NCBI GenBank assembly: GCA_015057715.1
Contig: SVDS01000045.1
Span: 1-33,216, forward strand
Direction of reading: 5' to 3'
Source: Paenibacillaceae bacterium
Lineage (GTDB): Bacteria; Bacillota; Clostridia; Lachnospirales; Lachnospiraceae
DNA: 33,216 nucleotides
Made by a program: the position numbers and the translations under genes. This document shows positions 2,896 to 30,661 of this stretch, one piece after another. The notes beneath the pieces were generated by a model, which did no database searches, was not told where the DNA came from, and saw nothing but the letters and a program-made list of their open reading frames with translations. Each line of letters opens with the position of its first letter. Within the stretch, counting starts at the first letter, position 1.

Positions 2896-4047
2896 TCACT
2901 GAAATTCCCTGTCCGTTATGTATTGGTGCCACAGACCACATAAATTTAAGGCTCCCCGAAATCCCATAAATGGAAGTTCATAAGGGTTAATACTCTGAGA
3001 AAGGATGCTGCGTCTGATTTCAATGGAAAACGCTCCGGGATTGTCCCTAAGTTCTACGCCATCGGACATATGAATCCCACCCTCAGCAAATGTAAATCCA
3101 ATCTCGTCCGTAGCAAATGTGCTGATTCCTTTGGCTAATTCATCTTCTCCCCTAATCCATATGTTTGCCCGCTCTTTATGAAGCCTGGTATAAAGCTGGC
3201 AGATATGTTTAGCATGGGCGGCCTCTTCCTGCTCCTTTATAAGGAAAGATTGTTCTGCGTTTTTACCAAGAAGAGTCTCCAGTTCCTTTATCCATTGGAG
3301 AGTTCCGTCAAATCCATAGGGTGCCAGATAGAGGTAGGGAATGCCGTTCTGTTTATAAAGAAGCTTAGCTGCTTTAAGGCCTTCTTTACGAATAACCAGC
3401 GTTATTTTTGCCTTTGTCATTTGGCTGATCTGATCCATACTGCAGGATGATCCCAGTATTGCGGCTGGTTCCATGTTAAAGCCATTCCTCATCATGCGGC
3501 AGATCTCTGCTGTGTCTGCCTGAAAACGTGACCAGTCGCAGGAGATTCCAAATACATTAAAAAAATCCTTTTTTAATGTATCAATTCCTTCATCGTCTTT
3601 TTCTGACAAGTAACGGACGAGTTTTTCATAAGCTTCCTCCATCCCCTGCTCTCTTGAAGCCTTAAAATTTCCTGCTTTAAATGAAATAATAGGGAGGCCC
3701 GGATATGTCGCTGACAACTCTTCTCCAATGGATTCCAGATCGGTTCCAATCATCTCCGGCACACTTGATGGAATCAAAAAGATCGCTTTGGCACGACCAA
3801 GCTTTACCACTTCTTCTACACATTCTTCCAGTCTTCTTGTAATTCCCAATGCAATATCCTTTTCGGATAAATGAGTAGATATTAATTCCCCAAATTTTAT
3901 TAGTCCTGTCTGACTCATCCATTTTTGGGCATACAGCATATGTCCCATAGAACCATATTCAATGACAGCACTATCATAGATCGTGGCAAGCGTCCATATT
4001 TGTCCCATTCTTCCCGATGGCTCCAGTACGTTTTTATAAAGCGGCAT
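2896..4047 (-). CDS. Nitrogenase component-1-like subunit, NifK-type, lacking cluster cysteines
   Basis: 383 residues of the oxidoreductase/nitrogenase component 1 fold. The fold shows in the 28-39 segment (VIEYGSMGHMLY, where the family normally has HGPxGC), the 91-103 segment (LIPSSVPEMIGTD, where the family has TTCPxxxIGxD) and the ending LPFMGFRGALNLCGLW (family LPxxGxxGA). All three positions that carry metal-cluster cysteines in NifK are other residues here (H36 and S95 at two of them), and the only cysteine in the first ~100 residues is C76. It should pair with the preceding D-like protein. It overlaps that gene by 14 bp and has its own GGAGGATCCCT ribosome site, implying coupled translation. 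Last gene of the operon. Substrate unknown; not a dinitrogenase by these features. Confidence 0.85.
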   Translation of the reverse strand: MPLYKNVLEPSGRMGQIWTLATIYDSAVIEYGSMGHMLYAQKWMSQTGLIKFGELISTHLSEKDIALGITRRLEECVEEVVKLGRAKAIFLIPSSVPEMIGTDLESIGEELSATYPGLPIISFKAGNFKASREQGMEEAYEKLVRYLSEKDDEGIDTLKKDFFNVFGISCDWSRFQADTAEICRMMRNGFNMEPAAILGSSCSMDQISQMTKAKITLVIRKEGLKAAKLLYKQNGIPYLYLAPYGFDGTLQWIKELETLLGKNAEQSFLIKEQEEAAHAKHICQLYTRLHKERANIWIRGEDELAKGISTFATDEIGFTFAEGGIHMSDGVELRDNPGAFSIEIRRSILSQSINPYELPFMGFRGALNLCGLWHQYITDREFQ

Positions 4048-5311
4048 AGGGATCCTCCTTTCTTAAAAGCCCGTCAAGAAGTTTAAGAAGGGCAAAGGTT
4101 CTCTCATATCCAATGAGCGGCGGCAAAAAGCTTCTTCCAGCTTTCAGACAACCGATCTCCTCTCCAATCTCTTTTCCAATGACAAATCGATAACTTCCTG
4201 GCTTCTCAAAACCAAGCTCCTTAAATCCGTCTTCTGTCATGCTATCTTCTACAAGAAAAGCAGTCAAAGGATTGATACCGTAGGACAATATCTTTTTTTT
4301 CCATTCTTTCATAAACTGCTGATATTCTTCCAGATGAAGAAAACAGGGAGTCATAGAGAGGGAACAAAGATACTCGGTTAAAATCAGGGCATCCGGAATG
4401 TTTGCTGTGAGGAGAAAGCGGCTTCCCTCTAACCGTTCTCTCACCCTGGCTTCTAACTTAGCGGTCTCTTGCAAATGGGAAAAGACCGGAGTCTCTCTTA
4501 ACAAAAGGGAGGTTCCGATTTTCTTATATGCCTCCTGAATACCATCTCTTCCATAAGATTCTCCCAGAAAAACATAAGGAATATCATAGATTGCTTCTAA
4601 TCGCTTTGCTAACGGAAGAAAATGAATATTTGTGACAATATTAAAGCAGGAGCTGCTGATTTTAGTGAACTGACTTAATTCTAAGACATCTTCCATTATA
4701 ACAATGTCATAGGAAGAAGATCCTGTACGCAGCCATCCACATAATTCCTTCCCCTCTTGTGACTGCGCTCCGCCTAAAAGAAAAACCACATTTTCCTTCT
4801 TTGATGCATCACAAAATTCCGCCAGTGCCAGATAACTCTCATAATAACCAGCTTCATAACCATTGCGTTTATAATGGGCCAGGTCCATGGCAGCTGCCCT
4901 GGCTCTGTGCCCCGCACCAAAGCTTTCCGTAATTTCCTGAATGTCTTCTCCAATCAGCGCTGGGACGCAGGTCATTATGACCGCAATTGCATCTGCTCCG
5001 TCTCGTTCCATTTCTTCCAGTGCTTTTAGTAATCCTTCCCGGCATCCAAATACCACTTCATTGGCATCTAGCACATACGTATAGTGAAGTTCTCCATTAG
5101 GACCTTTTGGTGTCTCCATTACATATCTGCTGTAAAATCCGCACTCCGGCATTCCCACGACAAGTGTGGAAACCCTGCTTACCCCTTGAAGTGTCGCCAG
5201 AGCCGTATGCATGGGACAATGATGCCCCACGGTCGGGACTGCATGGGAAAAAGGGATTCCCTGATTGCTTTCTATTTCAGATAACCGACAGGCCTTAAGC
5301 TGTTGATTCAT
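4034..5311 (-). CDS. Nitrogenase component-1-like subunit, NifD-type, with four candidate Fe-S cysteines
   Basis: 425 residues, nitrogenase component 1 superfamily (NifD/NifE/BchN/CfbD relatives). Cysteines sit at C32 (HHCPMHTALAT), C57 (GMPECGFYS, the GPxGC position), C90 (VVFGCREGL) and C115 (VIMTCVPALIGEDI, the TTCPxxxIGxD position). C32, C57 and C115 match by motif and spacing the three P-cluster ligands of NifD; C90 is an extra cysteine in the FGG region. The C-terminal area that holds the FeMo-cofactor histidine in NifD reads GRSFLPPLIGYERTFALL, with no histidine. So electron entry through one Fe-S cluster is likely, while a FeMo-type cofactor is not supported. Start set by GAGGAG, 35 bp after the NifH-like gene. 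Confidence 0.87.
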   Translation of the reverse strand: MNQQLKACRLSEIESNQGIPFSHAVPTVGHHCPMHTALATLQGVSRVSTLVVGMPECGFYSRYVMETPKGPNGELHYTYVLDANEVVFGCREGLLKALEEMERDGADAIAVIMTCVPALIGEDIQEITESFGAGHRARAAAMDLAHYKRNGYEAGYYESYLALAEFCDASKKENVVFLLGGAQSQEGKELCGWLRTGSSSYDIVIMEDVLELSQFTKISSSCFNIVTNIHFLPLAKRLEAIYDIPYVFLGESYGRDGIQEAYKKIGTSLLLRETPVFSHLQETAKLEARVRERLEGSRFLLTANIPDALILTEYLCSLSMTPCFLHLEEYQQFMKEWKKKILSYGINPLTAFLVEDSMTEDGFKELGFEKPGSYRFVIGKEIGEEIGCLKAGRSFLPPLIGYERTFALLKLLDGLLRKEDPYAAL

Positions 5312-5328
5312 AAAAATCTCCTCTTCAG

Positions 5329-5353
5329 TTAGTTAAATAACTGGCTTAACTAA
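5329..5353. promoter_or_regulatory. AT-rich inverted repeat spanning the NifH-like stop codon
   Basis: TTAGTTAA (5329-5336) and TTAACTAA (5346-5353) are perfect inverted copies 9 bp apart, between the NifH-like and NifD-like genes; the right arm includes the NifH-like stop codon. It could be a weak mRNA hairpin affecting relative expression of Fe protein and component 1, or a protein site. No promoter elements are evident. Confidence 0.35.
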
Positions 5354-6086
5354 AAATCAAATCGCCAAGTTTCTCATAGTTTTTTGCCATCTCACTATCC
5401 GGGAATGCACTGACCACGGTTTTTCCTTGTGCTTCTGCCTGCTGTATTAGGGGATTTCTTGGTATCTGAAAGACCACCTGAGTCTCAATTTCCCTGGCCG
5501 CCTGTTCCACCAGCGCTTCTTCATTTTCAATGTTTTTGCTGTTTAAAATGATTCCCCGAAGAGAGGCATATTTTCTTTTTCCAAACATCTTAACAGCCGA
5601 TGCAATGTTATTTGCTGCATACAAGGACATCATCTCACCGGAAGATACGATGTAGACTTCCTCTGCATAACCGCCTCGTATGGGCATGGCAAATCCGCCG
5701 CATACTACATCTCCCAGGACATCATAGATTACAATATCCGGCTGGTATACTGAAAATGCATCTAACTCTTCCAGCTTTTCAAATGCCGTAATAATTCCAC
5801 GCCCAGCACAGCCAACTCCTGGAACCGGTCCTCCGGCTTCCACACATAATACACCTTGATCTCCCTCATGCACCAGATCCTTAAGGACCAGATTTTCTTT
5901 ATCCCGTAACAGCTCCAGTACCGTTGGGATTTTCTTTCCTCCGGTCAGGTTGCGGGTGGAATCTGCTTTGGGGTCACACCCGATCTGCATCACTTTATAT
6001 CCTTTAGCAGCCAGTGCTGCAGACAGATTGGATACTGTAGTGGATTTTCCAATGCCGCCTTTTCCGTATATTGCTATTTTTTTCAT
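5346..6086 (-). CDS. NifH-like Fe protein (dinitrogenase-reductase family ATPase)
   Basis: 246 residues, shorter than true NifH (about 275-296). The P-loop [10 protein letters not shown] is at 8-17 and the switch-I-like CDPKADSTR at 37-45. The two [4Fe-4S] ligands of a homodimeric Fe protein are C93 (GVGCAGRG) and C129 ([12 protein letters not shown]). R96 matches the arginine ADP-ribosylated in some nitrogenases. In the family this protein uses ATP hydrolysis to pass low-potential electrons to its component-1 partner, here the two downstream proteins. Conservation of both cluster and nucleotide sites indicates a working electron donor. BchL/CfbC-type Fe proteins look similar, so the partner, not this protein, defines the reaction. 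A GGAGG ribosome site precedes the ATG; the gap to the ATPase gene is 18 bp. Confidence 0.9.
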
Positions 6087-6104
6087 ATTTTACCGACCTC
6101 CATT

Positions 6105-6935
6105 TTACTGCACGATTGCTGATTCTACCACCGCTGTGTCCTGTTCCATGTGACGACAAAGCCGACAGGACATGCAAACCGGCTTTTTACTGTAATCTTC
6201 TATCATAATATCCGCCTCAATCTGATAGACCTCCCGGAGTAACTCCCTGGTAATCACCTGATGGGGCGTACCCTTTCCTATTACTTTTCCTTTTTTTAAT
6301 GCTATGAGATAGTCAGCATACCTTGAGGCCATATTGATGTCATGAAGCACCATTACAATGGTACACCCCTGAGTTTTATTGAGATTTTCTAACAGTTCCA
6401 ATATCTCAAGCTGATAGGCCACATCCAAATAAGTCGTTGGCTCATCAAGTAAAATTATATCTGCCTGCTGTGCTAAAGCCATGGCAATCCACACCCTCTG
6501 CCTTTGTCCTCCCGACATATGATCAATACTTCTTTTGCCAAGTGCTGAAAGACTAGTGACTTCAAGCGCCCATTTAATTATCTCCCCGTCATTTTCGCTT
6601 TGTTTTCCAAATCCCTTTTGATGGGCATAGCGTCCATAAGATACCAGTTCTTCTGCTGTCAGACCATCTGGTGCAAGAGGGCTCTGGGGAAGTATTGCAA
6701 GTTTCCTGGCAAATTCTTTGCCGGATAACTCATAAATGTCTGTGTCATCCAGATACACCACTCCCTTTTTTGCTTTCATAAGCCTTCCAATGGTTTTTAA
6801 CAGAGTGGATTTGCCGCATCCATTGGGACCTATGATGGTGGTGATTTTACCAGAAGGTATCTCTAAGCTTAAGTTTTCAATAATAACATTTTCCCCATAA
6901 GCTACTCTCACCTGCTCCGTTCTCAATTCTCTCAT
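6105..6935 (-). CDS. Iron-siderophore/cobalamin-type ABC importer ATPase with Cys-rich tail
   Basis: 276 residues of the FepC/FhuC/BtuD family. Walker A GPNGCGKST at 36-44, signature MSGGQRQR, Walker B ADIILLDEPT, and the switch histidine in VMVLHDINMASRYADY. It energises the two FecCD permeases encoded just upstream. The unusual part is the C-terminus: CMSCRLCRH places C254, C257, C260 and H262 in a row, where FhuC relatives usually have a single Cys in a PxCxP-type segment. That could bind a metal or Fe-S cluster. The frame is open 65 codons further upstream, but that part overlaps the permease gene, and the ATG at 6935 follows GGGAGGAACC, so I use it. Confidence 0.88.
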   Translation of the reverse strand: MRELRTEQVRVAYGENVIIENLSLEIPSGKITTIIGPNGCGKSTLLKTIGRLMKAKKGVVYLDDTDIYELSGKEFARKLAILPQSPLAPDGLTAEELVSYGRYAHQKGFGKQSENDGEIIKWALEVTSLSALGKRSIDHMSGGQRQRVWIAMALAQQADIILLDEPTTYLDVAYQLEILELLENLNKTQGCTIVMVLHDINMASRYADYLIALKKGKVIGKGTPHQVITRELLREVYQIEADIMIEDYSKKPVCMSCRLCRHMEQDTAVVESAIVQ

Positions 6936-6955
6936 CCTGGTTCCTCCCAAATGTT

Positions 6956-7996
6956 TTAAATTCCTGCATTTTCTTTTCTTCCAGCACGGCTGTTCGTGAC
7001 CAAAAGAAATAAAAAATAAGGTGCACCTAAAATTGCAGCTACAATTCCAGCCGGAATCTCCGATGGCTCTATTATAATCCTGCCTATGGTGTCCGCTGCC
7101 AGTACCAGAATTGCCCCGGTCACGGCACAAAATGGAAGAAGAATCCTGTGTCTGGAGCCAACAAATCTTCTTGCCATATGAGGCCCCAAGAGACCCACAA
7201 AATGCAGGCTCCCACTTACTGATACTGAAGCGGCCGCTAATGCCACCGCCATAAACAGCAGTATTTTTTTCTCTTTTTGGACTGATACTCCCACTCCGGC
7301 AGAAAGTTCGTCGCCAACCATCAAAATATCCAGCTCCTTAGCTCTCAGACACAAATATCCCATTGCGGTAAAAATCCAGGGAACCAGACTGACAACCATC
7401 TTCCAATTGGAATTATGAATACTTCCCGCTTGCCAGACAGCCAGGGTATTGTACTGAGTGTCATCTAATTTAAGGACAAGTATGGTCATCAGAGCATTGA
7501 TACCAGCCTGAATGGCAATTCCGTTGAGAATCAATCGGGCAGTATTGAGTCCCCGCCCTTTTTGTACCGAGATGGCATATAGCATTCCACTGGTCAACAG
7601 TGCTCCAAGCAAGGAGAGAAATGGAAGGCTCAAAACACCCCCCATACTAAGAGTCCCGGATAATGTCATAAAGATCAAAACCACGATTCCTGCCCCGGAG
7701 TTAATACCCAGAAGCCCCGGATCTGCCAACGGATTCCTTGTAATGCCCTGCAGCACACAGCCTGACAGGGAAAATCCCACGCCCACTAATATTGCAACCA
7801 CGATACGAGGAAGGCGAAAGTCAAATACAATCATGTTCTCTCCTCCATCTCCTCCACCGCTTAGAATACGCAGCATATCTCTTATTCCAATGGGAGTATA
7901 ACCGGCGTTAATACTCACAAAAAAAAGTACGATTAAGAGCAGTAATGACAATACCAGTAAACGGATAAAGCGGGACTGTTTCCATAGGATCCTCAT
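6956..7996 (-). CDS. FecCD-family ABC importer permease (second)
   Basis: 346 residues, about nine to ten membrane helices. Family landmarks: GCVLQGITRNPLADPGLLG near residue 90, GLLGPHMARRFVG near 270 and the ending region IPAGIVAAILGAPYFLFLL. Proteins of this family form the channel for ferric siderophores, heme or vitamin B12. The ATG follows immediately on the stop codon of the preceding permease, so the two are translationally coupled and probably make a heterodimer. The gene is 20 bp before the ATPase start. Which ligand is carried cannot be read from the sequence. Confidence 0.9.
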   Translation of the reverse strand: MRILWKQSRFIRLLVLSLLLLIVLFFVSINAGYTPIGIRDMLRILSGGGDGGENMIVFDFRLPRIVVAILVGVGFSLSGCVLQGITRNPLADPGLLGINSGAGIVVLIFMTLSGTLSMGGVLSLPFLSLLGALLTSGMLYAISVQKGRGLNTARLILNGIAIQAGINALMTILVLKLDDTQYNTLAVWQAGSIHNSNWKMVVSLVPWIFTAMGYLCLRAKELDILMVGDELSAGVGVSVQKEKKILLFMAVALAAASVSVSGSLHFVGLLGPHMARRFVGSRHRILLPFCAVTGAILVLAADTIGRIIIEPSEIPAGIVAAILGAPYFLFLLVTNSRAGRKENAGI

Positions 7997-8995
7997 CTAA
8001 TCTCTCCCCCTTTCTTTGCTTGCATAATAAAGAAAGATTGGCACACCAATTACTGCGATTACCGCTCCCAGGGGAATCTCAGCCGGAGCATTCAGTGTCT
8101 TTGAAAACACATCTGCCACCACCACCAAAACGGCTCCCTGTAAGGCGCTGACAGGGATAATGAGCCGATAATCCGGCCCGACCAAAAATCTCACAAAATG
8201 AGGAATCATCATTCCTACAAAGGTAATACTTCCGCAAAGAGCAAAGGAGGTTCCCGAAAGCAGTACAACAAGAATCGTTCCCAGTCTCCTGGTCTGTCCG
8301 GTGTTTACTCCTACCCCCCTTGCGGCCTCCTCTCCCATATTCAAGATAGAAATTCTCTTTGATAAACCAATTCCAGCTACAATGCTGGCGGCTATTACCG
8401 GGCCTCCGATTCTTAACTGGGACCAGGTGACTCCAGAAGCGTTTCCCATGGTCCAGAACATAATACTTTGAGAAGCATTGGTGTAGATGGCAATGGCCTG
8501 GCTGATTGCAGAAAATAGTGTGCTTACCGTTGCACCTGCAAGCACCAGCTTCATGGATTCATTTCCCCCGGGAACTAAAATGCTAATCAGATGCACACTC
8601 CCTGCGCCAAAGGCGGCTCCAAGAAAGGTCATTCCAATAATTCCGGAATAACTCATTCCCTTTAAAAATATCAGGGAAACAGCTAAGAATAATCCTGCAC
8701 CTGCACTTAGTCCCATAAGACCGGAGTCTGCCAGTGGATTTCTGGTCATCCCCTGCATCATTGCTCCTGCCACAGCAAGTGCAGCTCCGATTAAGGCACC
8801 AGAGATTGCTCTTGGTACTCTCATATCCCGAACCAGCAGATGATTTGAGTCGTCTGCATGAAACGAAAAAAATGAGTCACTCACCACTTGAATAGTGAGA
8901 TTAGCGGCACCCGTCATAATAGATATGAAAATCGCCGCACAGAGCACCAAGAGGCTTCCTGAAATCACGATTATAACCCGGTTCCTGTATTTCAT
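7997..8995 (-). CDS. FecCD-family ABC importer permease (first)
   Basis: 332 residues with the same architecture as the next gene: an N-terminal helix, GAMMQGMTRNPLADSGLMG near 85, GMMIPHFVRFLVGPDYR near 265, and IPLGAVIAVIGVPIFLYY at the end. Two different permease subunits in tandem are the rule for iron-chelate importers in Firmicutes. AAGGAGTAAGA precedes the ATG and lies within the end of the exporter gene, which stops two bases before this start. Confidence 0.9.
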   Translation of the reverse strand: MKYRNRVIIVISGSLLVLCAAIFISIMTGAANLTIQVVSDSFFSFHADDSNHLLVRDMRVPRAISGALIGAALAVAGAMMQGMTRNPLADSGLMGLSAGAGLFLAVSLIFLKGMSYSGIIGMTFLGAAFGAGSVHLISILVPGGNESMKLVLAGATVSTLFSAISQAIAIYTNASQSIMFWTMGNASGVTWSQLRIGGPVIAASIVAGIGLSKRISILNMGEEAARGVGVNTGQTRRLGTILVVLLSGTSFALCGSITFVGMMIPHFVRFLVGPDYRLIIPVSALQGAVLVVVADVFSKTLNAPAEIPLGAVIAVIGVPIFLYYASKERGRD

Positions 8996-8997
8996 TC

Positions 8998-10743
8998 TTA
9001 CTCCTTCCCACCCACTCTGTCATTTGTAAGTGCATTCTGTTGTAATTCATATAACTTTTTATAGATCCCATTGCCTTCCATAAGTTCCTCATGAGATCCT
9101 TCCTGAATTGTTCCGCCTGGCTCCACCACAATAATACGGCTGGCATCTTTTATAGTAGAAAAACGATGGGCAATTAAAAGTGTGGTCCTTCCTTTGGAAA
9201 GTTCTCGTAAGGAGCGGTGGATTTCCATCTCATTTTCTGCATCAAGAGCTGAGGTTGCCTCATCAAGAATCAGAATTGAAGGATTTTTTAAAAACATTCT
9301 TGCAATGGAAAGCCTTTGCTTTTGCCCACCGGATAGCTTGATCCCCCGCTCCCCGATCATGGTTTTCATTCCTTTGGGCTGTTCTTTGATAAAATCATAA
9401 AGATTTGCCTGCTCTGCCGCTTTCCACAGCTCTTCATTACTTGCGTCCGGTTTCCCCACCCGGATATTTTCCTCTATTGTACCGGAGAAAAGAAATACAT
9501 CTTGTGCTACTACACCGATATGCTGTCTCAAGGATTTTAAACGGATGTCCTGAATGTTCTTTCCTTCAATCTCAATGGAGCCTTTGGTGATTTCATAGAA
9601 TCTTGGGATCAAGCCGCAGATCGTACTTTTTCCAGAACCAGAGTTTCCTACAAAAGCTACCGTCTCTCCTTCCTTTATAGTAAGAGACAGATTTTTAAGA
9701 ACCGGCTTTCCTGCTTCATAAGAAAAGCTTACATCCTTAAATACAATCTCGCCCTTTGGCTGTTCCAGTTCCACTGCATCCTCACCATCCTTAATATCTG
9801 GCTCCATTTTCATGAGTTCCACGAAATTTTGAAATCCAGCGATCCCTTTTGGGTAACGTGCAGCAAAATTACTTAGCATCTCAACCGGCTTTAGCAGCAA
9901 ATTGATAAGCAGAATAAAGCTAAAGAATTGACCCTCACTGATCCTTCCATGGAGTGCCAGCCAGCCACCGGCCAGTATAATTAACACCGGAAGAAGTTTT
10001 GTCACAAAATAGGTAATTCCATTGCAGGCTGCTATTCGAAGAAAACCCTCCTGCTGCCGTTTACAGTAACGCTCCGTGGTTTTTTGGAATGTCTCTCTTT
10101 GATGCGCTTCGCAGCAATAAGCCTGTACCACACGAATTCCGGCAAAATTCTCTTCCAGTTCTGCTGATATCTCTCCCACATTGCCAAACAATCTCCGTGA
10201 AATATTTACCATGACCTTTGTAAAATTAATATTGATCGCTAAAAGCAGCCCTACATTCATTACAATCAGACAGGCAAGAAACTTGCTGATGGATAGCATG
10301 ATGATTACTGTGGTTACTAACATAGAACCGGCAACCAGAAACTGTTCCGGCGCATAATGAGCAACCGTTCCTATCTGATGCAGATCGTTGGAGACCTTTG
10401 CAATTAGCTGTCCGGTTTTATTATTATCAAAGAACTGATAAGACATCTTCTGCAAATGGGAAAAGAGGTCATTACGGAGGTCATTTTCAATATACATCCC
10501 CAGCTTTTCACCCCAATAATCAATGACCATATATAAAAAAGTATTAAAAAAATAGGCAAGCACCAGCAAAAGACTGATCTTCACCATCTCATCCCATTTT
10601 CCCAGGGGAAGCAGGTCGTCAACAATATGACTGATGGCATAAGGAAATAATAATTCGATTACAGCGACCGCCACTGCACAGAGTAAATCGATTAAAAATA
10701 GAACTTTATAGGGTTTATAATACTTCATTGCCTGTTTTAACAT
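8998..10743 (-). CDS. ABC exporter (fused permease and ATPase) inside the importer operon
   Basis: About 581 residues. The N-terminal ~320 residues have six membrane helices of the type I exporter fold (LLFPYAISHIVDDLLP, then MSYQFFDNNKTGQLIAKVSND, the coupling region). The C-terminal ATPase has Walker A GNSGSGKST, signature LSGGQKQR, Walker B SILILDEATSALD and H-loop LLIAHRFSTI. Such proteins move lipids, peptides, drugs or siderophores outward. Placement between the binding protein and the permeases suggests the same regulon, perhaps export of a metallophore or of a by-product. The start is uncertain: the frame runs on to an ATG at 10821, but the segment 10768-10810 is a strong hairpin, so I chose the ATG at 10743 (MLKQAMKYY). 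10755 is also possible. Confidence 0.8.
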   Translation of the reverse strand: MLKQAMKYYKPYKVLFLIDLLCAVAVAVIELLFPYAISHIVDDLLPLGKWDEMVKISLLLVLAYFFNTFLYMVIDYWGEKLGMYIENDLRNDLFSHLQKMSYQFFDNNKTGQLIAKVSNDLHQIGTVAHYAPEQFLVAGSMLVTTVIIMLSISKFLACLIVMNVGLLLAININFTKVMVNISRRLFGNVGEISAELEENFAGIRVVQAYCCEAHQRETFQKTTERYCKRQQEGFLRIAACNGITYFVTKLLPVLIILAGGWLALHGRISEGQFFSFILLINLLLKPVEMLSNFAARYPKGIAGFQNFVELMKMEPDIKDGEDAVELEQPKGEIVFKDVSFSYEAGKPVLKNLSLTIKEGETVAFVGNSGSGKSTICGLIPRFYEITKGSIEIEGKNIQDIRLKSLRQHIGVVAQDVFLFSGTIEENIRVGKPDASNEELWKAAEQANLYDFIKEQPKGMKTMIGERGIKLSGGQKQRLSIARMFLKNPSILILDEATSALDAENEMEIHRSLRELSKGRTTLLIAHRFSTIKDASRIIVVEPGGTIQEGSHEELMEGNGIYKKLYELQQNALTNDRVGGKE

Positions 10744-10767
10744 CGTTTCTCTCATTTCTAAAGAATG

Positions 10768-10810
10768 AAACAGGCAGATACATTCGTAACGACATCGTAT
10801 CTGCCTGTTT
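10768..10810 (-). terminator. Intercistronic hairpin, possible attenuator or processing site
   Basis: AAACAGGCAGATAC (10768-10781) and GTATCTGCCTGTTT (10797-10810) form a perfect 14-bp stem with a 15-base loop, between the binding-protein gene and the exporter gene. Downstream on the minus strand the sequence is CATTCTTTAG, only weakly U-rich, so partial termination or mRNA stabilisation is more likely than full stop. It would give more lipoprotein than membrane components, as in many binding-protein operons. Confidence 0.6.
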
Positions 10811-10842
10811 GAAAATACCATTTATCCTTAAGTTTTTGCAGT

Positions 10843-11832
10843 TTATTCTGCCGTTAATTTATCTGTAATGAAATTTACGGTATATAAGGTTGCAAGGGGA
10901 CTGGCTGCATGTCCGCTTCCATCAATCTGGTATATATGTTCATTCTTTACAGCCTTTAATGACCTCCACACAGAGTTGTTCTCAAGTTCTTCCAATAATG
11001 GCTCATCTCCGTCAAATACATTGACAAAGATGTAATCGGGGTTCATCTTAACAAGTGCTTCCATGGAAATCTGCTCATAAGTCTCTGACTGAGTAAAGCC
11101 TTCGGGAACATTTAATCCCAGTCCTTTCTCCTTATCATATAGATCAGGGCGGTATGCAACGTAATATTTATCTTTTCCCATGAGTGAAAACTGAACTACG
11201 GTCTGGTCTTTATATTTTTCTGCCAGCTTTTCTCTGTCCGCTTCCAGCTTTTCATCCAGATCTTTAATAACTTCTTCTGCCTTGTCCTGTTTATTCACTA
11301 TTTTTGCAACTTCTCTCAGGCTAAGCCGCCAATCCATTTTCGTATCATTTCCGAATACAGCGACTGGTCCGATTTTCTCCAGGTTTCCAATCTCCAGATT
11401 TTTCATATCATAACTCTGGTTCAGTATCAAATCCGGTTTTAACTGCGCCAGCAATTCCAGGTTAAGCTCACTGGTACCAAGATCCTTTACTCCACTTACA
11501 TCGTAACCCTGAAAGGCATCCCAGGTCTTTATGTAATTATCTGCACCAGAAACAGCAACCGGCTTAACCCCCAGAAGAATCAGGGTTTCCCATAAAGGAA
11601 GATAATTGGTCACTATCGACTGTGGTTCTTTTTCAATGACAATGGTTCTTTCTGCTGCATCTGTGTATTCATATGGATAGACTATCCCGGATTCAGTAAC
11701 TGAAACAGCTGATTCAGTCATATCTGTTAAGTCCTTTGCATCTGCAGTCGTCTTTTGACTGTTGCTTTGACAGCCCGAAAGCAATGACAATGATAATGCT
11801 GTAACGGTTACTATGGATAAAATTTTTTTCAT
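10843..11832 (-). CDS. FecB/BtuF-type substrate-binding lipoprotein
   Basis: 329 residues. A lipoprotein signal with lipobox LLSGC (C21) anchors it to the outer face of the membrane; a Ser/Thr-rich linker follows. The periplasmic-binding-protein class III fold shows in the opening ERTIVIEKEPQSIVTNYLPLWETLILLGVKPVAV, the middle LNLELLAQLKPDLIL and the late MEALVKMNPDYIFVNVF. The family binds ferric siderophores, heme or cobalamin between two lobes joined by a rigid helix. First structural gene after the regulator; its own promoter lies at 11871-11899 and an AAAGGAGATTGT ribosome site precedes the ATG. Ligand not determinable. Confidence 0.9.
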   Translation of the reverse strand: MKKILSIVTVTALSLSLLSGCQSNSQKTTADAKDLTDMTESAVSVTESGIVYPYEYTDAAERTIVIEKEPQSIVTNYLPLWETLILLGVKPVAVSGADNYIKTWDAFQGYDVSGVKDLGTSELNLELLAQLKPDLILNQSYDMKNLEIGNLEKIGPVAVFGNDTKMDWRLSLREVAKIVNKQDKAEEVIKDLDEKLEADREKLAEKYKDQTVVQFSLMGKDKYYVAYRPDLYDKEKGLGLNVPEGFTQSETYEQISMEALVKMNPDYIFVNVFDGDEPLLEELENNSVWRSLKAVKNEHIYQIDGSGHAASPLATLYTVNFITDKLTAE

Positions 11833-11870
11833 ACAATCTCCTTTTTACTTAATCTTTCCTTTTAAAGGAG

Positions 11871-11899
11871 AATATAGCATAAGAAAACAGGAAAATGAA
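11871..11899 (-). promoter_or_regulatory. Extended -10 promoter of the transporter/reductase operon
   Basis: On the minus strand the -10 is TATATT (complement of 11871-11876) with a TGC extension directly upstream. The best -35 is TTCATT (11894-11899), 17 bp away, a poor match to TTGACA. A weak -35 with a strong extended -10 is typical of activator-dependent promoters, fitting control by the adjacent AraC protein. CTTATGCTATA is shared with the araC promoter. Confidence 0.5.
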
Positions 11900-11915
11900 T
11901 GGACTTTTTCCAAAA

Positions 11916-12746
11916 TTAATATGGATTTTTTCCAAAATGGCGATGAAACACACTGGGTGCTATGCCTGTGCTCCGCTTGAACATCCGGCTAAAATGAAGT
12001 GCATCCTCATAACCAATCCGTCTGGAAATCTCTGCAATGCTTAAACTGCTTTCTGACAATAGCTCTTTGGCTTTTTTTAGCTGGACTTCCATAATATATC
12101 TCTTTGGCGGGAGCCCTATCTTTTTCTGAAAGGAATAGGAAAATTGCTTCCCACCCATTTTAAAATGTTCTGCAATCTCGGATACAGATAAATTATCTTC
12201 CAAATGTTCATGGATGTATAAAAGCACCTCCTCAATCCAATCCTTTGGCTTTTTTTCCAGACTCTTTTCGGAAAAGGCAAAGAGTTTCTCTATCAGCTCA
12301 TATAATAAAATTTTTGTGGATAATAGATATCTCGTTTCATATCGCTTCTGCTGGTCCATGATGTAATCTATAATTTTCATGATTTCCTCACTCTGACTGG
12401 GAAATAGATTTATTATATAATGCATATTCAAAAGAGAATCTATCCTTTCTTCCTCTTGTAATACCCTGTAGTGGAGCAATATGAACTCCCACTCTTCCTC
12501 TCCAATTACTTCCTTACTTAAGTTCATATCCGGGCCTGCATGGAGGATGGTTCCTCTTTTCAGTTCATAGTTTTCATTACACACTTTAAATAAAGCTTTG
12601 CCATGGATGGGAATTACAAATCCGCAGACCCCCTGCATGGTCGTCACAGCATCTACCCTGCTGCCGGGAGGAACGCATATATGGTATGCTTCGTCCATTT
12701 CTAAATTTGCTTTTGCATATTTCAACACTAAATTGTTTTGATTCAT
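11916..12746 (-). CDS. AraC-family transcriptional regulator
   Basis: 276 residues. The N-terminal ~130 residues are a cupin-like sensor region (ICVPPGSRVDAV, IPIHGKALFKV, LKRGTILHAGPDM). The C-terminal ~100 residues carry the two helix-turn-helix units of AraC proteins: LSVSEIAEHFKMGGKQFSYSF and LSIAEISRRIGYEDALHFSRMF followed by the KRSTGIAPSVFHRH signature. It is probably the activator of the downstream operon, sensing the imported ligand, as YbtA- and PchR-type regulators do for siderophores (inference by analogy). An ATG 30 bp further upstream is in frame, but GAGGAAAGA fits the ATG at 12746. Its own promoter has a metal-regulator-like box (see 12784-12802). Confidence 0.87.
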   Translation of the reverse strand: MNQNNLVLKYAKANLEMDEAYHICVPPGSRVDAVTTMQGVCGFVIPIHGKALFKVCNENYELKRGTILHAGPDMNLSKEVIGEEEWEFILLHYRVLQEEERIDSLLNMHYIINLFPSQSEEIMKIIDYIMDQQKRYETRYLLSTKILLYELIEKLFAFSEKSLEKKPKDWIEEVLLYIHEHLEDNLSVSEIAEHFKMGGKQFSYSFQKKIGLPPKRYIMEVQLKKAKELLSESSLSIAEISRRIGYEDALHFSRMFKRSTGIAPSVFHRHFGKNPY

Positions 12747-12783
12747 TTGTCTTTCCTCTTTAATATGAAGCATCACAGCTATT

Positions 12784-12802
12784 AAGTTAGTTTATGCTAA
12801 CC
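12784..12802 (-). promoter_or_regulatory. Operator-like box in the araC leader, shared with the ZIP gene
   Basis: On the minus strand this reads GGTTAGCATAAACTAACTT, an inverted repeat GTTAG-N6-CTAAC. The ZIP transporter leader has GGTTAGCATTTGCTAACTT at 22251-22269, identical at 16 of 19 positions, and both boxes lie just downstream of the predicted transcription start. The half-sites resemble those of DtxR/IdeR-type metal repressors (GGTTAG/CTAACC), but the spacing is wider, so the regulator is not identified. Confidence 0.55.
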
Positions 12803-12812
12803 GCTTTAGTAT

Positions 12813-12841
12813 ACTATAGCATAAGTTCTTGAAATAGGCAA
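12813..12841 (-). promoter_or_regulatory. Promoter of the araC gene
   Basis: On the minus strand, TTGCCT (complement of 12836-12841), 17 bp, then TATAGT (complement of 12813-12818) with a TGC extension. TAGTATACTA at 12807-12816 is a perfect palindrome overlapping the -10, and TTATGCTA (12792-12799) and TAGCATAA (12817-12824) form a second inverted pair. Confidence 0.7.
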
Positions 12842-12895
12842 TTTGTTTGCCATTATCAGTAGATTGCATTTTCATTATCATAAACAACTATTAAA

Positions 12896-12937
12896 AATGC
12901 AGGATAAAGGAAGAATTAAATTCCCTCACCCTGCATT
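12896..12937 (-). terminator. Terminator of the LysM-GH18 gene
   Basis: Minus-strand AATGCAGG (complement of 12930-12937) pairs with CCTGCATT (complement of 12896-12903) and runs into TTTTTA. It sits nine bases after the stop codon at 12946 and separates this gene from the araC operon. Confidence 0.65.
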
Positions 12938-12945
12938 CACTCTAT

Positions 12946-14091
12946 CTAATCTCCAACCTTCCTTGCCACAAACATCTGGCTCAGCACCAGCCAGTTGGCC
13001 CGGAAGAACTGCATGATCTGCCAATATCCTGCTCCTGTTAATCCATACTCTTTTATTAGGTCAAATTTAGCCTTATAACTCCTCACATCTTCAAACCAGA
13101 CTTCATGTTCAACTCCATACTTCCAATAACGGAAAAATGGGGACATGGCCTCTTCATCAAACTCAATTTCTGCACCATTATCGATTGCAATCTGAACCGC
13201 TTCCAAATTGCTTACAGTTTCCGCCCTGGTGACCCCCCTCTCGTACGGGAGCGGCCAGTCATATCCGTAATTCGGGATTCCCAGACTGATCTTATATAAT
13301 GGAATTTCAGTTATTGCGTAATCTACCACTTTTCTAACCATGTTAATGGGTGCTACTGCCATGGGTGGGCCGTATGTATACCCCCACTCATAAGTCATAA
13401 GCAAAACCCTGTTCGCCGCTTCCCCCAAAAGCCTGTAATCTACGCCCTCATATAACAGCCCGCTCTGATCGGCCGATGTTTTGGGGGCAAGTGCTACCGT
13501 TACCTGATAGCCAAACTGATTCATGATCTGGGTGATCCGTTTTACAAAGTCCGCATAAGCCTGACGGTCATCTGCCATAATGTACTCAAAGTCAATATCC
13601 AGACCGCCAAACCGTTTCTCCTGCATAATCTTACCAAGATTCCATATCAGACGCTGCTGTATCTGTGGGTTGTGTACCAGGTTTGTTACAAGGTTATTAT
13701 TAAACCGGCCGTCGGGTCCAAAGGGCGTTAAAGTCAAAATCGGGCGCACTCCGGCCTCCAATGCACGATCGATCATCCAGTCATCCGGGCTCTGAGGCGG
13801 AACTAAATCTCCCTCTAACGTAAATCCATAGGAAAAAACGTAAAGATCTGTGAGAAATGGAAGGGTTTCATCCAGATTATCCGGATTAATGAAGGGATAT
13901 GCATAGCCAAACACATATAGTGGAATCCTGTCTTCGGGAGGACTGTCACCCCTGATATAAAGTGCCTGACCGACTGCCAGGCGGTATGGAGGATAAATCT
14001 GATTGTCATATGTCAAAGCTTCTACCGGAACGTTTTGGGACGCGGCAATGGAATCTACACTGTCACCCGGCTGTACTACATATATGTTCAT
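12946..14091 (-). CDS. LysM + glycosyl hydrolase family 18 protein (spore-cortex-lytic type)
   Basis: 381 residues. A LysM peptidoglycan-binding module occupies residues 1-47 (IYVVQPGDSVDSIAASQNV to GQALYI). The rest is a GH18 TIM barrel with the active-site strand GGLDIDFEY; D165, D167 and catalytic E169 are all present. No signal peptide is visible, as in SleL/YaaH-type enzymes that are made in the mother cell and cleave N-acetylglucosaminyl bonds in spore cortex. Bacillus SleL usually carries two LysM modules; here there is one. A role in germination or spore coat is inferred from family. The ribosome site is AAAGGGTG; two tiny open frames lie immediately upstream. Confidence 0.85.
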   Translation of the reverse strand: MNIYVVQPGDSVDSIAASQNVPVEALTYDNQIYPPYRLAVGQALYIRGDSPPEDRIPLYVFGYAYPFINPDNLDETLPFLTDLYVFSYGFTLEGDLVPPQSPDDWMIDRALEAGVRPILTLTPFGPDGRFNNNLVTNLVHNPQIQQRLIWNLGKIMQEKRFGGLDIDFEYIMADDRQAYADFVKRITQIMNQFGYQVTVALAPKTSADQSGLLYEGVDYRLLGEAANRVLLMTYEWGYTYGPPMAVAPINMVRKVVDYAITEIPLYKISLGIPNYGYDWPLPYERGVTRAETVSNLEAVQIAIDNGAEIEFDEEAMSPFFRYWKYGVEHEVWFEDVRSYKAKFDLIKEYGLTGAGYWQIMQFFRANWLVLSQMFVARKVGD

Positions 14092-25068: not shown

Positions 25069-25488
25069 CTATCGGATCTCATATTTATGCTTGGTACGCA
25101 GTCTTGCCAGAGATCTGGCTAAGGATGCTTCAAAATGAGAATGCTCCTGAAGGCTCTTGCCCTGTCTTAACTGTTCCTCTGCTCTCTCCCTGGCTTCTTC
25201 CGCACGGCGTTCGTCAATATCCTGAGGAAGCTCTGCCGTATCCACCAGAAGAGTCACACGGTTGTTAACAATCTGAACAAATCCGTTTCCTACCACGGCG
25301 TGAATCCATTCTCCGTCTTCGTTCATCAGTCTCATCTCTCCGATGGCAACCGCAATTACCATATCTTCGTGATGAGGCAGAACTGCTTTTTCACCATCTG
25401 CAAGAGGAATGATTAACTTCTGGCACGGTCCTTTGTAAAAAACCTTGTCACTGGCAAGCACCTGAAGGAAAAATGTACTTGTACTCAC
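25069..25488 (-). CDS. atpC: ATP synthase F1 epsilon subunit
   Basis: 139 residues. The N-terminal beta-sandwich (FFLQVLASDKVFYKGPCQKLIIPLADG, then LPHHEDMVIAVAIGEM) and the C-terminal helical hairpin (DERRAEEARERAEEQL) are both present. It sits on the central stalk and can inhibit ATP hydrolysis. The frame is open to a TTG at 25503, but GGAGG lies there as the ribosome site, so GTG at 25488 (product starting MSTSTFFLQ) is the better start. Last gene of the operon, 16 bp after atpD. Confidence 0.95.
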   Translation of the reverse strand: MSTSTFFLQVLASDKVFYKGPCQKLIIPLADGEKAVLPHHEDMVIAVAIGEMRLMNEDGEWIHAVVGNGFVQIVNNRVTLLVDTAELPQDIDERRAEEARERAEEQLRQGKSLQEHSHFEASLARSLARLRTKHKYEIR

Positions 25489-25504
25489 TGGCAGCACCTC
25501 CAAG

Positions 25505-26905
<1,401 letters not shown>

Positions 26906-26908
26906 TTA

Positions 26909-26932
26909 CTCACAGTCGTGAGGACTCCTCCT
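26909..26932 (-). promoter_or_regulatory. Structured ribosome-binding region before atpD
   Basis: Minus strand: AGGAGG, then CTCAC-GACT-GTGAG as a hairpin, then nine bases to the ATG. The Shine-Dalgarno is also part of the small palindrome AGGAGTCCT. The hairpin would bring the two closer; the alternative palindrome would hide the ribosome site. Confidence 0.35.
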
Positions 26933-26961
26933 CTCTCAATTTATGGAAAATACGATATAGC

Positions 26962-27858
26962 CTAAGCCTTTTTCTGTTTCTTCTTCTGTGCCTTTGCTCC
27001 GCTGATTACCTCGGTAATTTCCTGGGTAATTGCAGCCTGCCGCACCCGGTTATAGGTAATTGCCAGATCATCAAGCATTTCCTGGGCACTCTTTGTGGCT
27101 GCCTGCATTGCCATCATTCTGGAGTTCTGCTCACTGGAATAGGATTCCACCAGTCCTCCATAAATAAATCCTGCAATATAGTTAGGCACAATCGCGTCAA
27201 TTACTGCCTGGGGAGACGGCTTCATGGTGATTTCCTCTAAATGGACATTTAAAGGAACACTCTGTCCGGTGCGGTTCTTGGGAATTGGCAGAAGCTGCCG
27301 TATTTCGGCTTCCATTTTCATCGCATTGACCATTCTGGTATAGATCATATACACTTCATCAAGTTTCCCTGAAAGAAAATAATCAACAATCTTCTCTTCA
27401 ATAATTCTTGCACGGCTCATATTAGGTTTCTGAACTGTATAACGGAAATCCTGTTCCACCGGTATTCCTTTTTTAGAAAAATACTGCTGTCCCAGATCAC
27501 CTACTACAAACAGGGTGGGATTTCCTCCCTTGTCGATCTGTTCCTGTGCCAGTTTAAAAACGTTGTGATTATAAGCACCTGCAAGACCTTTATCTGCTGT
27601 TACTACGATATATCCGATTTTACGATCCTCTTTTTTAATCTCTGGCCGGGTATCTAAATACTGGTCATCAATGTCGGGCGTATGCCTTATGATTCGGTCA
27701 ATGGTTCTTTGCAGTCCGTAAAAATAAGGCTCCGTATCAGTCAGGGCTTTTCTGGCCCTTTTTAACTTTGACGAGGAAATGGTATACATCGCATTTGTTA
27801 TTTTCATGGTACTCTTGATACTGTTCATCCTGCTTTGTATTTCTCTCGCATTTGCCAT
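26962..27858 (-). CDS. atpG: ATP synthase F1 gamma subunit (central shaft)
   Basis: 298 residues with the terminal coiled-coil helices of the rotor: N-terminal MANAREIQSRMNSIKSTMKI and C-terminal NRVRQAAITQEITEVISGA. The middle carries the Rossmann-like domain (GYIVVTADKGLAGAYNHNVF). Three bases after the atpA stop, with GGGTG as ribosome site. The C-terminus carries an extra lysine-rich tail, KAQKKKQKKA. Confidence 0.96.
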   Translation of the reverse strand: MANAREIQSRMNSIKSTMKITNAMYTISSSKLKRARKALTDTEPYFYGLQRTIDRIIRHTPDIDDQYLDTRPEIKKEDRKIGYIVVTADKGLAGAYNHNVFKLAQEQIDKGGNPTLFVVGDLGQQYFSKKGIPVEQDFRYTVQKPNMSRARIIEEKIVDYFLSGKLDEVYMIYTRMVNAMKMEAEIRQLLPIPKNRTGQSVPLNVHLEEITMKPSPQAVIDAIVPNYIAGFIYGGLVESYSSEQNSRMMAMQAATKSAQEMLDDLAITYNRVRQAAITQEITEVISGAKAQKKKQKKA

Positions 27859-27861
27859 ATC

Positions 27862-29370
27862 TTACACCCGTTTCTGTTTAAATTCTGCAACCCCGTCAAG
27901 AATCTTCTGTTTCAGCTCATCAGACAATGCCTTGGTTTCCTCGATCTCTTTGACGATCTCCGGATGAATACTTTCAAAGAAATCAAGTAAGTTTCTCTGG
28001 AATTCTTTCATCTTTGGAACCTCTACATCAAGTAAAAGGCGGTTATTGGCTGTTAACAGACTGATTACCTGTTCATGAAGGCTTAATGGATGGCATAATG
28101 GCTGCTTTAACAGTTCCGTTAAACCTCTTCCAAACTGAATCTGTTCCTTGGTAGCTGCATCAAGATCGGAACTGAACTGGGTAAATACCTCCATCTCACG
28201 GCACTGTGCCAGATCAATACGAATGCTGCCTGCTGCTTTTTTCATGGCCTTTGTCTGCGCTGCACCGCCTACACGGGATACAGAAAGACCAACGTTAACT
28301 GCAGGTCTCATACCGGAGAAAAAGAGGTCACTCTCTAAGAAGATCTGTCCATCTGTAATAGAAATAACGTTTGTCGGGATATAGGCAGATACGTCTCCAG
28401 CCTGTGTCTCAATAATAGGAAGGGCTGTAATGGATCCGCCTCCCAGTTCTTCCTTTAAGCGGCTGGAACGCTCCAACAGCCTGGAATGAAGATAGAAAAC
28501 ATCACCTGGGTACGCTTCACGTCCTGGAGAACGCTCAAGAAGCAGAGATAGTGCACGGTATGCAACCGCATGCTTGGAAAGATCATCATATACGATCAGT
28601 ACATCTTTGCCCTTATACATGAAATGCTCAGCAAGTGCTGTTCCTGAGTAAGGTGCAATATACTGCAGGGGAGCTGGCTCACTTGCAGTGGAGGACACTA
28701 CAATGGTGTAATCCATGGCGCCGTAATGAGTCAGGGTATTTACCAGCTTGGCAACTGTAGATGCCTTCTGTCCAATTGCCACGTAAACACAGATTACATC
28801 TTTGCCTTTCTGGTTTAAGATAGCGTCTACTGCAATTGATGTTTTACCTGTCTGACGGTCACCGATGATTAACTCTCTCTGACCACGTCCGATTGGGAAC
28901 ATGGAGTCAATGGCAAGAATTCCGGTTTCCATAGGAACGGATACACTTTTTCTGTCGATGATACCAGGTGCCTCATTTTCAATTGGACGGAAATCATCAG
29001 AAGGAATCTCTCCCTTACCATCAATAGGTGCTCCCAGTGCATTTACTACTCTGCCGACAAACTGATCGCCAACCGGAATACCGGCACGTCTTTTTGTCCT
29101 TGTAACCTTGCAGCCTTCCTTTATATCGCGGTCTGAGCCAAAGAGAATACAGCCGATATCTTCTCTTCTGATATCCTGAACCATTCCCTTGACACCGTTA
29201 TCAAATATAACAATTTCACCGTACATTGCATGATCAATTCCGTATACCGTTGCAATGCCGTCTCCTACGCTTAAGACAGTTCCCACTTCCTGGTCTCTGG
29301 CATGAGCGTCATAATCCTTAATTTCACTTCTCAATATAGAAATAATTTCATCTGAATTGATGGAAGCCAC
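27862..29370 (-). CDS. atpA: ATP synthase F1 alpha subunit
   Basis: 502 residues from a GTG at 29370 ([13 protein letters not shown]), preceded by GGAGG with eight-base spacing. An in-frame GTG three codons earlier (29379) overlaps that ribosome site and is less likely. The non-catalytic nucleotide site [11 protein letters not shown] and the family signature [17 protein letters not shown] are present. Length and order are normal. Confidence 0.96.
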
Positions 29371-29375
29371 GTTTT

Positions 29376-29879
29376 TCACCTCCGCATTATATTTTGTTCT
29401 AATTGTCTCAGACGTCCCTTTAAACTCCAGTCAGTCTCCACATCTCCCACACGGAGGATGAAGCCACCGATTAAACCGGGGTCTTCGATCATGCAGAGCC
29501 TTACTTCCTTTTTCTCATATTTCCTGCAAAGCATGGCCTTTATTTCACGGATCTGTTCTTCATCTGGTTCCGTTACATAATAAAGCGTTGCTTCTAAAAT
29601 GCCCGCTTCTTTGCATACTTTGGAACGCCAGGCTTCAAATATTTCATCTGCAAGATCCATATCACGGCGATCAACCAGGACCTTAAAAAAGATTCTGATG
29701 GATTCGTCAAATACCCGCTCAATAACCCGGTGTTTGCTGGTTTTGGGAACCACAGGGCTGTTTAAGACACGCTTAAGCTCCGGCACTGTTTTAAGCGCCA
29801 GAGCCGCATCCTCTATCACCTTCTCGGGAAGGGAGAGTTCATACAGCACCTGCCCGTAATTAATTGCTGCCTGCGTCAT
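29376..29879 (-). CDS. atpH: ATP synthase F1 delta subunit (peripheral stalk)
   Basis: About 167 residues. It starts [17 protein letters not shown] and ends with the delta-family pattern [28 protein letters not shown]. It links the alpha/beta ring to the b-subunit stalk. A GTG at 29888 is in frame, but AGGTGA fits the ATG at 29879. The start overlaps the end of atpF by 20 bp, indicating coupled translation. Confidence 0.93.
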
Positions 29880-30360
29880 GGGAATCACCTGCTTCTGCTA
29901 AAAATGAATCATAAAGAGCCTGATTTGCTTTCGCGTTTGTTTCCTGTCCAACTACCTTGGCTGCTGCCGCAATCACCAGACTTGCAATCTGGGCTTTTGC
30001 TTCCCGCATTGCTTTTTCCTGATCGGCTTCTGTCTTTTTCTGGGCTTCGCTGACCACGCGTCCCGCATCTTCCTGTGCATCCTTTAAGATCCTGTCATAC
30101 TGGGCTTTCGCCTGAAGTTTCGCTTCCTCAATCAGTTTAGCGCCCTCTTCTCCGGAAGCGGCCAGTTTCTCTTCATACTGCTTTTTCAAAACTGATGCCT
30201 GCCCTTCCGAAGATCTTGCATTGCTGATGCTCTGCTCAATCATCGTTTGCCGTTTATTAATGACATTCATAACCGGCTGAATCAGGAAATGCCTCAGCAG
30301 AAAATACAGGACGATGAGATTCACGATATTCCACACAAAGTTCATATCCAGTCTAAGCAT
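29860..30360 (-). CDS. atpF: ATP synthase Fo b subunit
   Basis: 166 residues: one N-terminal membrane helix (WNIVNLIVLYFLLRHFLI) followed by a long charged coiled coil (MIEQSISNARSSEGQASVLK onward), the normal dimeric stator layout. The ribosome site AGGCAGGCGA is modest. Confidence 0.93.
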   Translation of the reverse strand: MLRLDMNFVWNIVNLIVLYFLLRHFLIQPVMNVINKRQTMIEQSISNARSSEGQASVLKKQYEEKLAASGEEGAKLIEEAKLQAKAQYDRILKDAQEDAGRVVSEAQKKTEADQEKAMREAKAQIASLVIAAAAKVVGQETNAKANQALYDSFLAEAGDSHDAGSN

Positions 30361-30414
30361 CTGTATCGCCTGCCTTTCTAATATTTTTTTCCATGTACAT
30401 CCTGTCGGTATAAA

Positions 30415-30633: not shown

Positions 30634-30661
30634 AATTATTTCTCCTTTTTCATCAATAGTT

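Follow-up and report, generated by a model that had tools for sequence, protein, structure and literature searches.

We have analyzed a run of nine genes in a 33,216-nucleotide stretch of DNA, hereafter the window (contig SVDS01000045.1, our C19, from the 5.4 Mb genome GCA_015057715.1, labeled Paenibacillaceae bacterium and placed by GTDB in the Lachnospiraceae), in which genes for a nitrogenase-like reductase (H, D, and K) follow those for an ATP-binding cassette (ABC) importer. With modest confidence, we favor the interpretation that the nine genes make up an iron-acquisition module whose ATP-driven reductase would free iron from an imported chelate; gene neighborhoods and correlated distances support the view that importer and reductase have evolved together as a unit. 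An original prediction for this DNA had described NifH-, NifD-, and NifK-like genes behind FecCD permeases, a FepC-type ATPase, a lipoprotein, an exporter, and an AraC regulator, with tiny gaps. That description holds: all nine genes lie on the minus strand in the predicted order, running from 12776 to 2896 with intergenic gaps of −14 to +83 bp, D being penultimate and K final:

11916..12776 (likely start 12746), minus strand: AraC-family regulator (Pfam HTH_18, 2.8e-21)
10843..11832, minus strand: Peripla_BP_2 lipoprotein, a substrate-binding protein (SBP) of siderophore-receptor type (PF01497, 4.3e-30)
8998..10821 (likely start 10743), minus strand: ABC exporter half-transporter, MsbA-like (ABC_membrane 2e-47, ABC_tran 7e-36)
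7997..8995, minus strand: FecCD-type permease 1 (PF01032, 1.9e-82)
6956..7996, minus strand: FecCD-type permease 2 (PF01032, 6.5e-92)
6105..6935, minus strand: FepC/FecE-type importer ATPase (ABC_tran 1.1e-30; FecE model 325 bits, cut-off 375)
5346..6086, minus strand: H-like Fe protein, 246 amino acids (Pfam Fer4_NifH, 4.9e-95)
4034..5311, minus strand: D-like subunit, 425 amino acids (Pfam Oxidored_nitro, 2.1e-36; alignments)
2896..4047, minus strand: K-like subunit, 383 amino acids (Pfam Oxidored_nitro, 4.2e-44; alignment to Clostridium pasteurianum NifD)

The reading frame of the importer ATPase is open to 7130, and we place its start at the ATG at 6935, not at the upstream TTG. Judged by domain content, the Peripla_BP_2 protein, two FecCD permeases, and FepC-type ATPase together have the make-up of a ferric siderophore ABC importer.

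The association of importer and reductase recurs in other genomes. We searched 61 genomes (60 relatives and the window's own) and fetched 19 family loci besides the window; FecCD permeases are present in 17 of them, the exceptions being L045 and L046. The order AraC–SBP–permease–permease–(ATPase)–H–D–K is kept in sets whose D is 31–36% identical, and importer linkage recurs in relatives with D only 24–36% identical; an ATPase gene between permeases and H was not found in L040–L042 and L047. A wider scan, taking one genome per species, gave 70 loci, with a FecCD permease within 9 kb of D in 51/70 and in the same gene run in 41/70. Outside an importer-poor clade of 11 loci the former count is 49/59, with incomplete contigs kept in; for the 48 of these 59 loci whose contigs reach 6.5 kb or more upstream of D, it is 43. 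The 70 include L122, which was matched over residues 33–117 only and left out of the trees; L157–L159 were taken as repeats of L103, L095, and L105 and not counted as new, and loci from close strains are not independent. A class-level survey found a match in 37/391 genomes, 11 of them above 300 bits, and in six further loci (L160–L165) SBP, FecCD, and ATPase genes are present in 6/6. As controls we used nif and other nitrogenase-like loci (L166–L176, the best-scoring other matches of the class-level survey, from 11 of 26 such genomes), and FecCD or SBP genes occur in 0/11. The window's own genome has 11 FecCD matches in 5.4 Mb. The scarcity of FecCD genes, the recurrence in distant relatives, and the unlinked controls together place the linkage beyond chance neighborhood, and the survey that the original prediction had proposed thus finds the transporter and reductase genes together often, not rarely.

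An iron connection comes from Fur boxes. We used the 15-base palindrome TGATAATNATTATCA, the Fur-type consensus, with a threshold of at least 12 of 14 matches. Boxes are found in 27/143 gaps before family genes as compared to 6/408 of the remaining gaps of these loci (Fisher 5.5e-12), and at 25/75 loci as compared to 1.75 expected from resampled gaps. Perfect boxes occur in four loci (L063, L074, L108, and L116). Within the window's own D clade, boxes are found in L058, L059, L062–L065, and L068; in a related clade with heme-type receptors, described below, they are found in L112, L116, L117, L118, and L161, and there are also boxes beside L108 and L114.

By sequence and predicted fold, the lipoprotein of the window is closest to siderophore receptors. 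In a PDB sequence search FeuA is its best match (4e-21), with FhuD-like proteins and YfmC also among the nearest. Its AlphaFold2 model (predicted local distance difference test [pLDDT] 87.5) gives a Foldseek list led by YfiY–schizokinen and FeuA, followed by VatD–Desferal and other siderophore, citrate, and iron-uptake receptors; no heme or B12 receptor is among the best 50 of 1072 rows. It scores 43.8 with the IsdE model (cut-off 298.65) and 25.6 with the BtuF model (cut-off 234). Its lineage comprises 13 SBPs, encoded at the loci that also make up the window D clade of 14 (the L057 SBP is split), and the conserved residues of this lineage gave no ligand identity. A heme receptor was considered for the window and rejected, since both the Met and the His motif of IsdE are absent from the lineage and the IsdE score is low. 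An Rfam scan retrieved no family from the window or 14 related loci and only tRNAs from three more; thus there is no cobalamin riboswitch in the window or these 17 loci, and the tRNAs indicate that the search works. Among the substrates first proposed (metal chelate, heme, corrinoid, or other macrocycle), a metal chelate, specifically an iron chelate, fits the Fur boxes, the IsdE- and FeuA-type receptors of related clades, and the fold of the window SBP. Corrinoid is not supported for the window, and heme is supported for a related clade only.

This related clade is marked by IsdE-type SBPs, recognized by sequence in 11 loci (L052, L112, L115–L119, L121, L160, L161, and L162). The IsdE model was run on seven of them: L162 passes the cut-off at 357.7 and the other six score 225–279 (the L160 open reading frame is short). 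In the PDB search the L118 SBP matches Lmo2184 (3e-53) and IsdE (3.5e-44). The His and Met positions of IsdE, presumably the axial heme ligands, read His in 11/11 (L117 by eye) and, of 10 readable, Met in 7 and Phe in 3. In 6/11 of these loci a gene for a HugZ-like split-barrel protein follows K at a gap of 11–187 bp, and the L118 example matches a Helicobacter pylori-type heme oxygenase (3gas, 7e-19) and HutZ (3tgv, 2e-18). The importer genes lie between H and D in 8/11 (L161 and L162 differ, and L119 is truncated). We therefore regard heme as a supported chelate for this clade, as its sequences indicate, and not for the window. A Flavodoxin_3 gene directly follows K at L161:7368-7871, L163:11878-12426, and L165:11978-12580; its product is a plausible electron donor.

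Other receptors point to catecholates. The L108 SBP matches FeuA at 8e-106, and that of L050 groups with FeuA in a tree; the catecholate assignment for L108 is not certain, because its FeuA-like importer is divergent from H-D-K, whereas that of L050 lies within the same run. D subunits of the heme-type set group in one clade and those of L108/L050/L114 in another, with support of 100/99 each, and two trees disagree on whether these clades are sisters. One genome (G056) has two sets, L050 with a FeuA-type and L052 with an IsdE-type receptor, each beside its own D/K. Across 51 loci thinned to 40, with SBPs at most 7.5 kb from D, D and SBP distances are correlated (Mantel r 0.72, 0/2000 permutations as high). 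Common species descent adds to this correlation, and the G056 pair is therefore the cleaner case. With the linkage counts, these results support the earlier view of importer and reductase as a unit.

The reductase subunits differ from those of nitrogenase. Window D has Cys32, Cys57, and Cys115 at P-cluster positions. In a profile alignment Cys57 and Cys115 match the two cluster cysteines that C. pasteurianum NifD has in its GCSFY and ATCP motifs, which we take to be Av Cys88 and Cys154; Cys32 precedes the aligned stretch and is assigned as the probable third ligand by order. At the same two positions window K has His36 and Ser95 and no cysteine. Among 77 D sequences, C32 is found in 73, C57 in 75, and C115 in 77, the remainder being gaps. 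Among 73 K sequences, position 36 is His in 57 and Thr in 16, neither the H36 nor the S95 position has a cysteine (0/73), and Glu30, Ser94, and Asp103 are each invariant (73/73). The residues thus suggest a DPOR-like pattern of three cysteines plus another ligand, unlike the six-Cys P-cluster. The position of the iron–molybdenum cofactor ligand Cys275 reads NIVTNIHFLPLAK in window D, without cysteine; the profile alignment, also made to C. pasteurianum NifD, stops short of the His442 region. Window H has a P-loop and two cluster cysteines, Cys93 and Cys129, and both cysteines are kept in 70/70. The D model (AlphaFold2 pLDDT 90.5) has the nitrogenase/DPOR fold, and the solved chain nearest to window H is 9fmg_D from the methylthio-alkane reductase complex. 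H is 66–98% conserved relative to the window (20 sequences) and D 22–92% (40 sequences), as expected if D/K carry the substrate specificity.

Known members of the superfamily were tried in turn as identities for this reductase. N2 nitrogenase is rejected by the missing P-cluster cysteines of K, by the absence of Cys275, and by NCBIfam scores (NifH 336, cut-off 394.35; NifD 20.1, cut-off 653.55). Contig C30 of the same genome carries a separate set of nif-type genes (H, D, K, E, and N). DPOR (BchLNB) is rejected because D, K, and H fall under the BchN, BchB, and BchL cut-offs (BchB 78.4 vs 490.35; BchL 209.9 vs 345.15) and D stands apart from BchN in the tree; linkage to an importer is a further difference. 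CfbC is the best NCBIfam match of H, yet at 350.8 bits it is under the cut-off of 402, and D scores 26.4 with CfbD (cut-off 268.4); moreover, CfbD is described in the part of PMC11423573 that we cite as a homodimer without a K subunit, unlike the D/K pair here. The archaeal genome containing locus L081 carries both CfbD above its cut-off and this family. IsrHDK and MarHDK are alike in belonging to Group IV and in reducing small molecules, and ABC transporter genes lie near isrHDK; however, Isr is rejected because the same part of PMC11423573 gives it one cluster cysteine in D and three in K, unlike the three in D and none in K found here. No radical S-adenosylmethionine (SAM) domain was reported for the window operon. 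D and K trees place the family in clades separate from NifDKEN, BchN, and CfbD, and these sequences support a position outside those superfamily groups that the tree includes; it was built without Mar, Isr, and BchB. The lineage that had been called uncharacterized is to that extent distinct.

We propose that the FecCD/FepC importer would bring in a ferric chelate, that ferredoxin or flavodoxin would charge H, and that H would hydrolyze ATP to send low-potential electrons, through one [4Fe-4S] cluster per D/K pair with three cysteines and one other ligand, to the chelate, which would sit between D and K. Once reduced to Fe(II), the iron would come free, and the ABC exporter may then carry out the emptied chelator. 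This last is a candidate role; the exporter lies in the same run in six loci or divergently in the three Pelosinus loci, in which the importer is likewise divergent, an arrangement that fits chelator recycling. The potentials of ferric catecholates are far below that of ferredoxin, and for ferric chelates with so low a potential it is reasonable that ATP should drive the transfer. D/K clades would be specialized: one for heme (with the IsdE-type receptor and frequently a gene for a HugZ-like protein or a flavodoxin), a second probably for triscatecholate siderophores (FeuA-like receptor), and that of the window for a siderophore-like chelate. The wider proposition, that this branch of the superfamily consists of ATP-driven iron-chelate reductases whose D/K radiated with the importer receptor onto heme, triscatecholates, and further chelates, is one that we put at slightly less than an even chance.

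Several observations weigh against the iron-release interpretation. At the threshold of 12 of 14, a Fur box is absent from 50/75 loci, including the window and its five nearest relatives (L053–L057); the best box in the window matches 10/14, so we infer iron control of the window copy rather than see it. The importer-poor clade (L095, L097, L099, L102, L103, L104, L105, L107, L109, L110, and L113) has a permease nearby in 2/11, and none is nearby at L045, L046, L072, L075, L079, L114, and L120, from which it follows that the reductase can exist unlinked to an importer; the importer-poor clade may hold the same reductase with another substrate supplier, or one whose job has changed. The importer ATPase does not adjoin the set in several loci (e.g. 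L064, L066, L067, L089, and L098), and in L050, L086, and L101 D and K have no adjacent H. L070 and L074 carry a FeuA-like divergent importer although their D falls in the main group; in L088 and L090, the receptors cluster away from those of their own D clade. The four HugZ-like proteins scanned score 131–137 bits, under the HugZ cut-off of 240. For heme, iron reduction alone would hardly need ATP, in which case the ring must be the target. DPOR, COR, and Cfb reduce the tetrapyrrole ring, and by analogy with DPOR, COR, and CfbCD the macrocycle is the likelier target in the heme clade.

In a different explanation, the target of the reductase is the organic ligand (chelator or porphyrin) and not iron, and the enzyme degrades or saturates this ligand for carbon, detoxification, or recycling. 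The action of DPOR, COR, and Cfb on tetrapyrroles, in the cited part of PMC11423573, and the clade with heme receptors and HugZ-like genes both favor it; yet receptor chemistries vary widely (heme, catecholate, and others) with iron as the common part, and the Fur boxes indicate iron supply, so we consider it unlikely for the family, though the strongest of the competitors. The idea, also raised in the original prediction, that a corrinoid or other non-iron macrocycle is imported and reduced draws on the matches of the FecCD permeases to BtuC models and on CfbC being the top-scoring model for H. It appears very improbable in view of the BtuF score, the lack of a B12 receptor among the best Foldseek rows, the lack of a riboswitch in the window and 17 loci, and the Fur boxes of relatives.

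There are two further alternatives, each of which we think improbable. One, suggested in the cited part of PMC3464626, has the importer supply metal for cofactor assembly of the nitrogenase-like protein itself, and the co-location of importer and reductase agrees with it. However, a Pfam scan of the nine operon proteins reported neither a radical SAM nor a NifB-like domain; with a Cys275-type ligand lacking from D and cluster cysteines from K, there is no sign of a complex cofactor; and heme- and catecholate-type receptors are general iron suppliers. In the other, importer and reductase are only co-regulated by iron, the reductase sparing or replacing an iron-dependent step unrelated to import. 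Unrelated genes could come side by side under Fur control, an H-D-K clade without importer exists, and receptor and D clade are mismatched in L070/L074; against these stand the paralogous sets of G056, which pair different receptors with D/K of different clades, and the heme clade, with importer genes placed between H and D. Release of iron from an imported chelate remains the interpretation that we prefer.

The gene association was already known in outline. In the part of Dos Santos et al. 2012 (PMC3464626) cited here, genes resembling NifE and NifN that follow those for NifH and an ABC ATPase are described in C. botulinum strains and Alkaliphilus oremlandii as Group IV, the NifE-like subunit having three cysteines and the NifN-like one none; no function is assigned there or in the later papers that our searches listed, and metal transport is suggested to be coupled to cofactor assembly. 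Those loci are like the window in NifH, three-Cys D, no-Cys K, and adjacent ABC ATPase gene, and are probably the same family, likened by description and not by sequence. They are a few loci, to which the present analysis adds receptor clades, Fur boxes, and a control comparison; these, with the iron-chelate reading, are new as far as the literature searched. The original claim of a new pathway is thereby narrowed, the co-location with ABC genes being already in print and the reductive step one that we propose. Functions reported for Group IV in the cited part of PMC11423573 are Cfb, Mar, and Isr. Paenibacillus sabinae has nifHDK-like genes that failed to complement nitrogenase mutants (PMC4246453); a term search of a C. 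difficile Fur-regulon paper (PMC6311696) returned no nifH or nifD, and among the open-access PMC papers listed by our searches none was seen to give this branch a part in the handling of iron, siderophores, or heme. HutWXZ/ChuW, in the cited part of PMC12670364, is likewise a Fur-regulated heme operon with a HutZ-type protein beside an anaerobic heme-processing enzyme, but this is a radical SAM enzyme and that of our heme clade is nitrogenase-like. The HutW model exceeds its cut-off of 400 in 0/9 genomes searched (seven for which the one locus analyzed is of the heme clade, G056, which has both types, and the genome of L114), each having weaker matches up to 190–216 bits; the nitrogenase-like enzyme could thus stand where HutW adjoins HutZ in Vibrio, as described in that part of PMC12670364.

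Some observations concern the surroundings of these genes. The closest named relatives of window D are from 'Hungatella sp. SA7853_bin5' (98%), a Paenibacillaceae SIG287 bin (93%), and Lacrimispora species (90–92%), so the window probably comes from a Lacrimispora-like member of the Lachnospiraceae. In the Lacrimispora group, CTTATGCTATA is common to the region upstream of AraC and the AraC–lipoprotein gap (window 12777-12945 and 11833-11915), and the window has, in addition, GGCAA-N5-TTGCC upstream of AraC; both are possible regulator or promoter sites. The window AraC matches the model of the bacillibactin regulator Btr weakly (64.8 bits, cut-off 900). The adjacent upstream gene, also on the minus strand, encodes a LysM and GH18 protein (window 12946-14091); it is kept beside the operon in nearest relatives and is probably unrelated to it. 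Clustering of neighbors gave no gene shared by the window clade beyond the closest strains, and genes downstream of K differ among window-clade loci. F-type ATP synthase genes, read from translations, lie on the minus strand at window 25069-31357. L070 (6679-7992) and L074 have a luciferase-like monooxygenase gene, scanned in L070, between AraC and the FeuA-like importer genes, with a Fur-type palindrome near it. L081 (5290-13526), from an archaeal bin of Candidatus Methanoplasma in the genome with CfbD, has family genes and two receptors. The importer-poor clade includes several loci from sheep-gut and other metagenome bins and two loci labeled Coriobacteriia. L086 (526-14080) and L101, labeled Paenibacillus, have D and K without a neighboring H, then a FeuA-like importer; at L086 an esterase gene (PF00756) stands next to this importer and the family genes, and so hydrolytic and reductive routes can coexist.

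The proposed function is directly testable, because the receptor of each operon names its own candidate substrate. If it is true, the nitrogenase superfamily would gain a new kind of chemistry, and anaerobes a general means of iron removal that leaves the chelator unbroken and returns it by the ABC exporter. Heme could be opened without oxygen, and without recourse to either heme oxygenase or radical SAM chemistry, and ATP would bring within reach ferric chelates of very low redox potential, such as triscatecholates whose iron is too hard for ordinary reductases. Some 'nifH' and 'nifD' matches in metagenomes would then mean iron nutrition, not nitrogen fixation.

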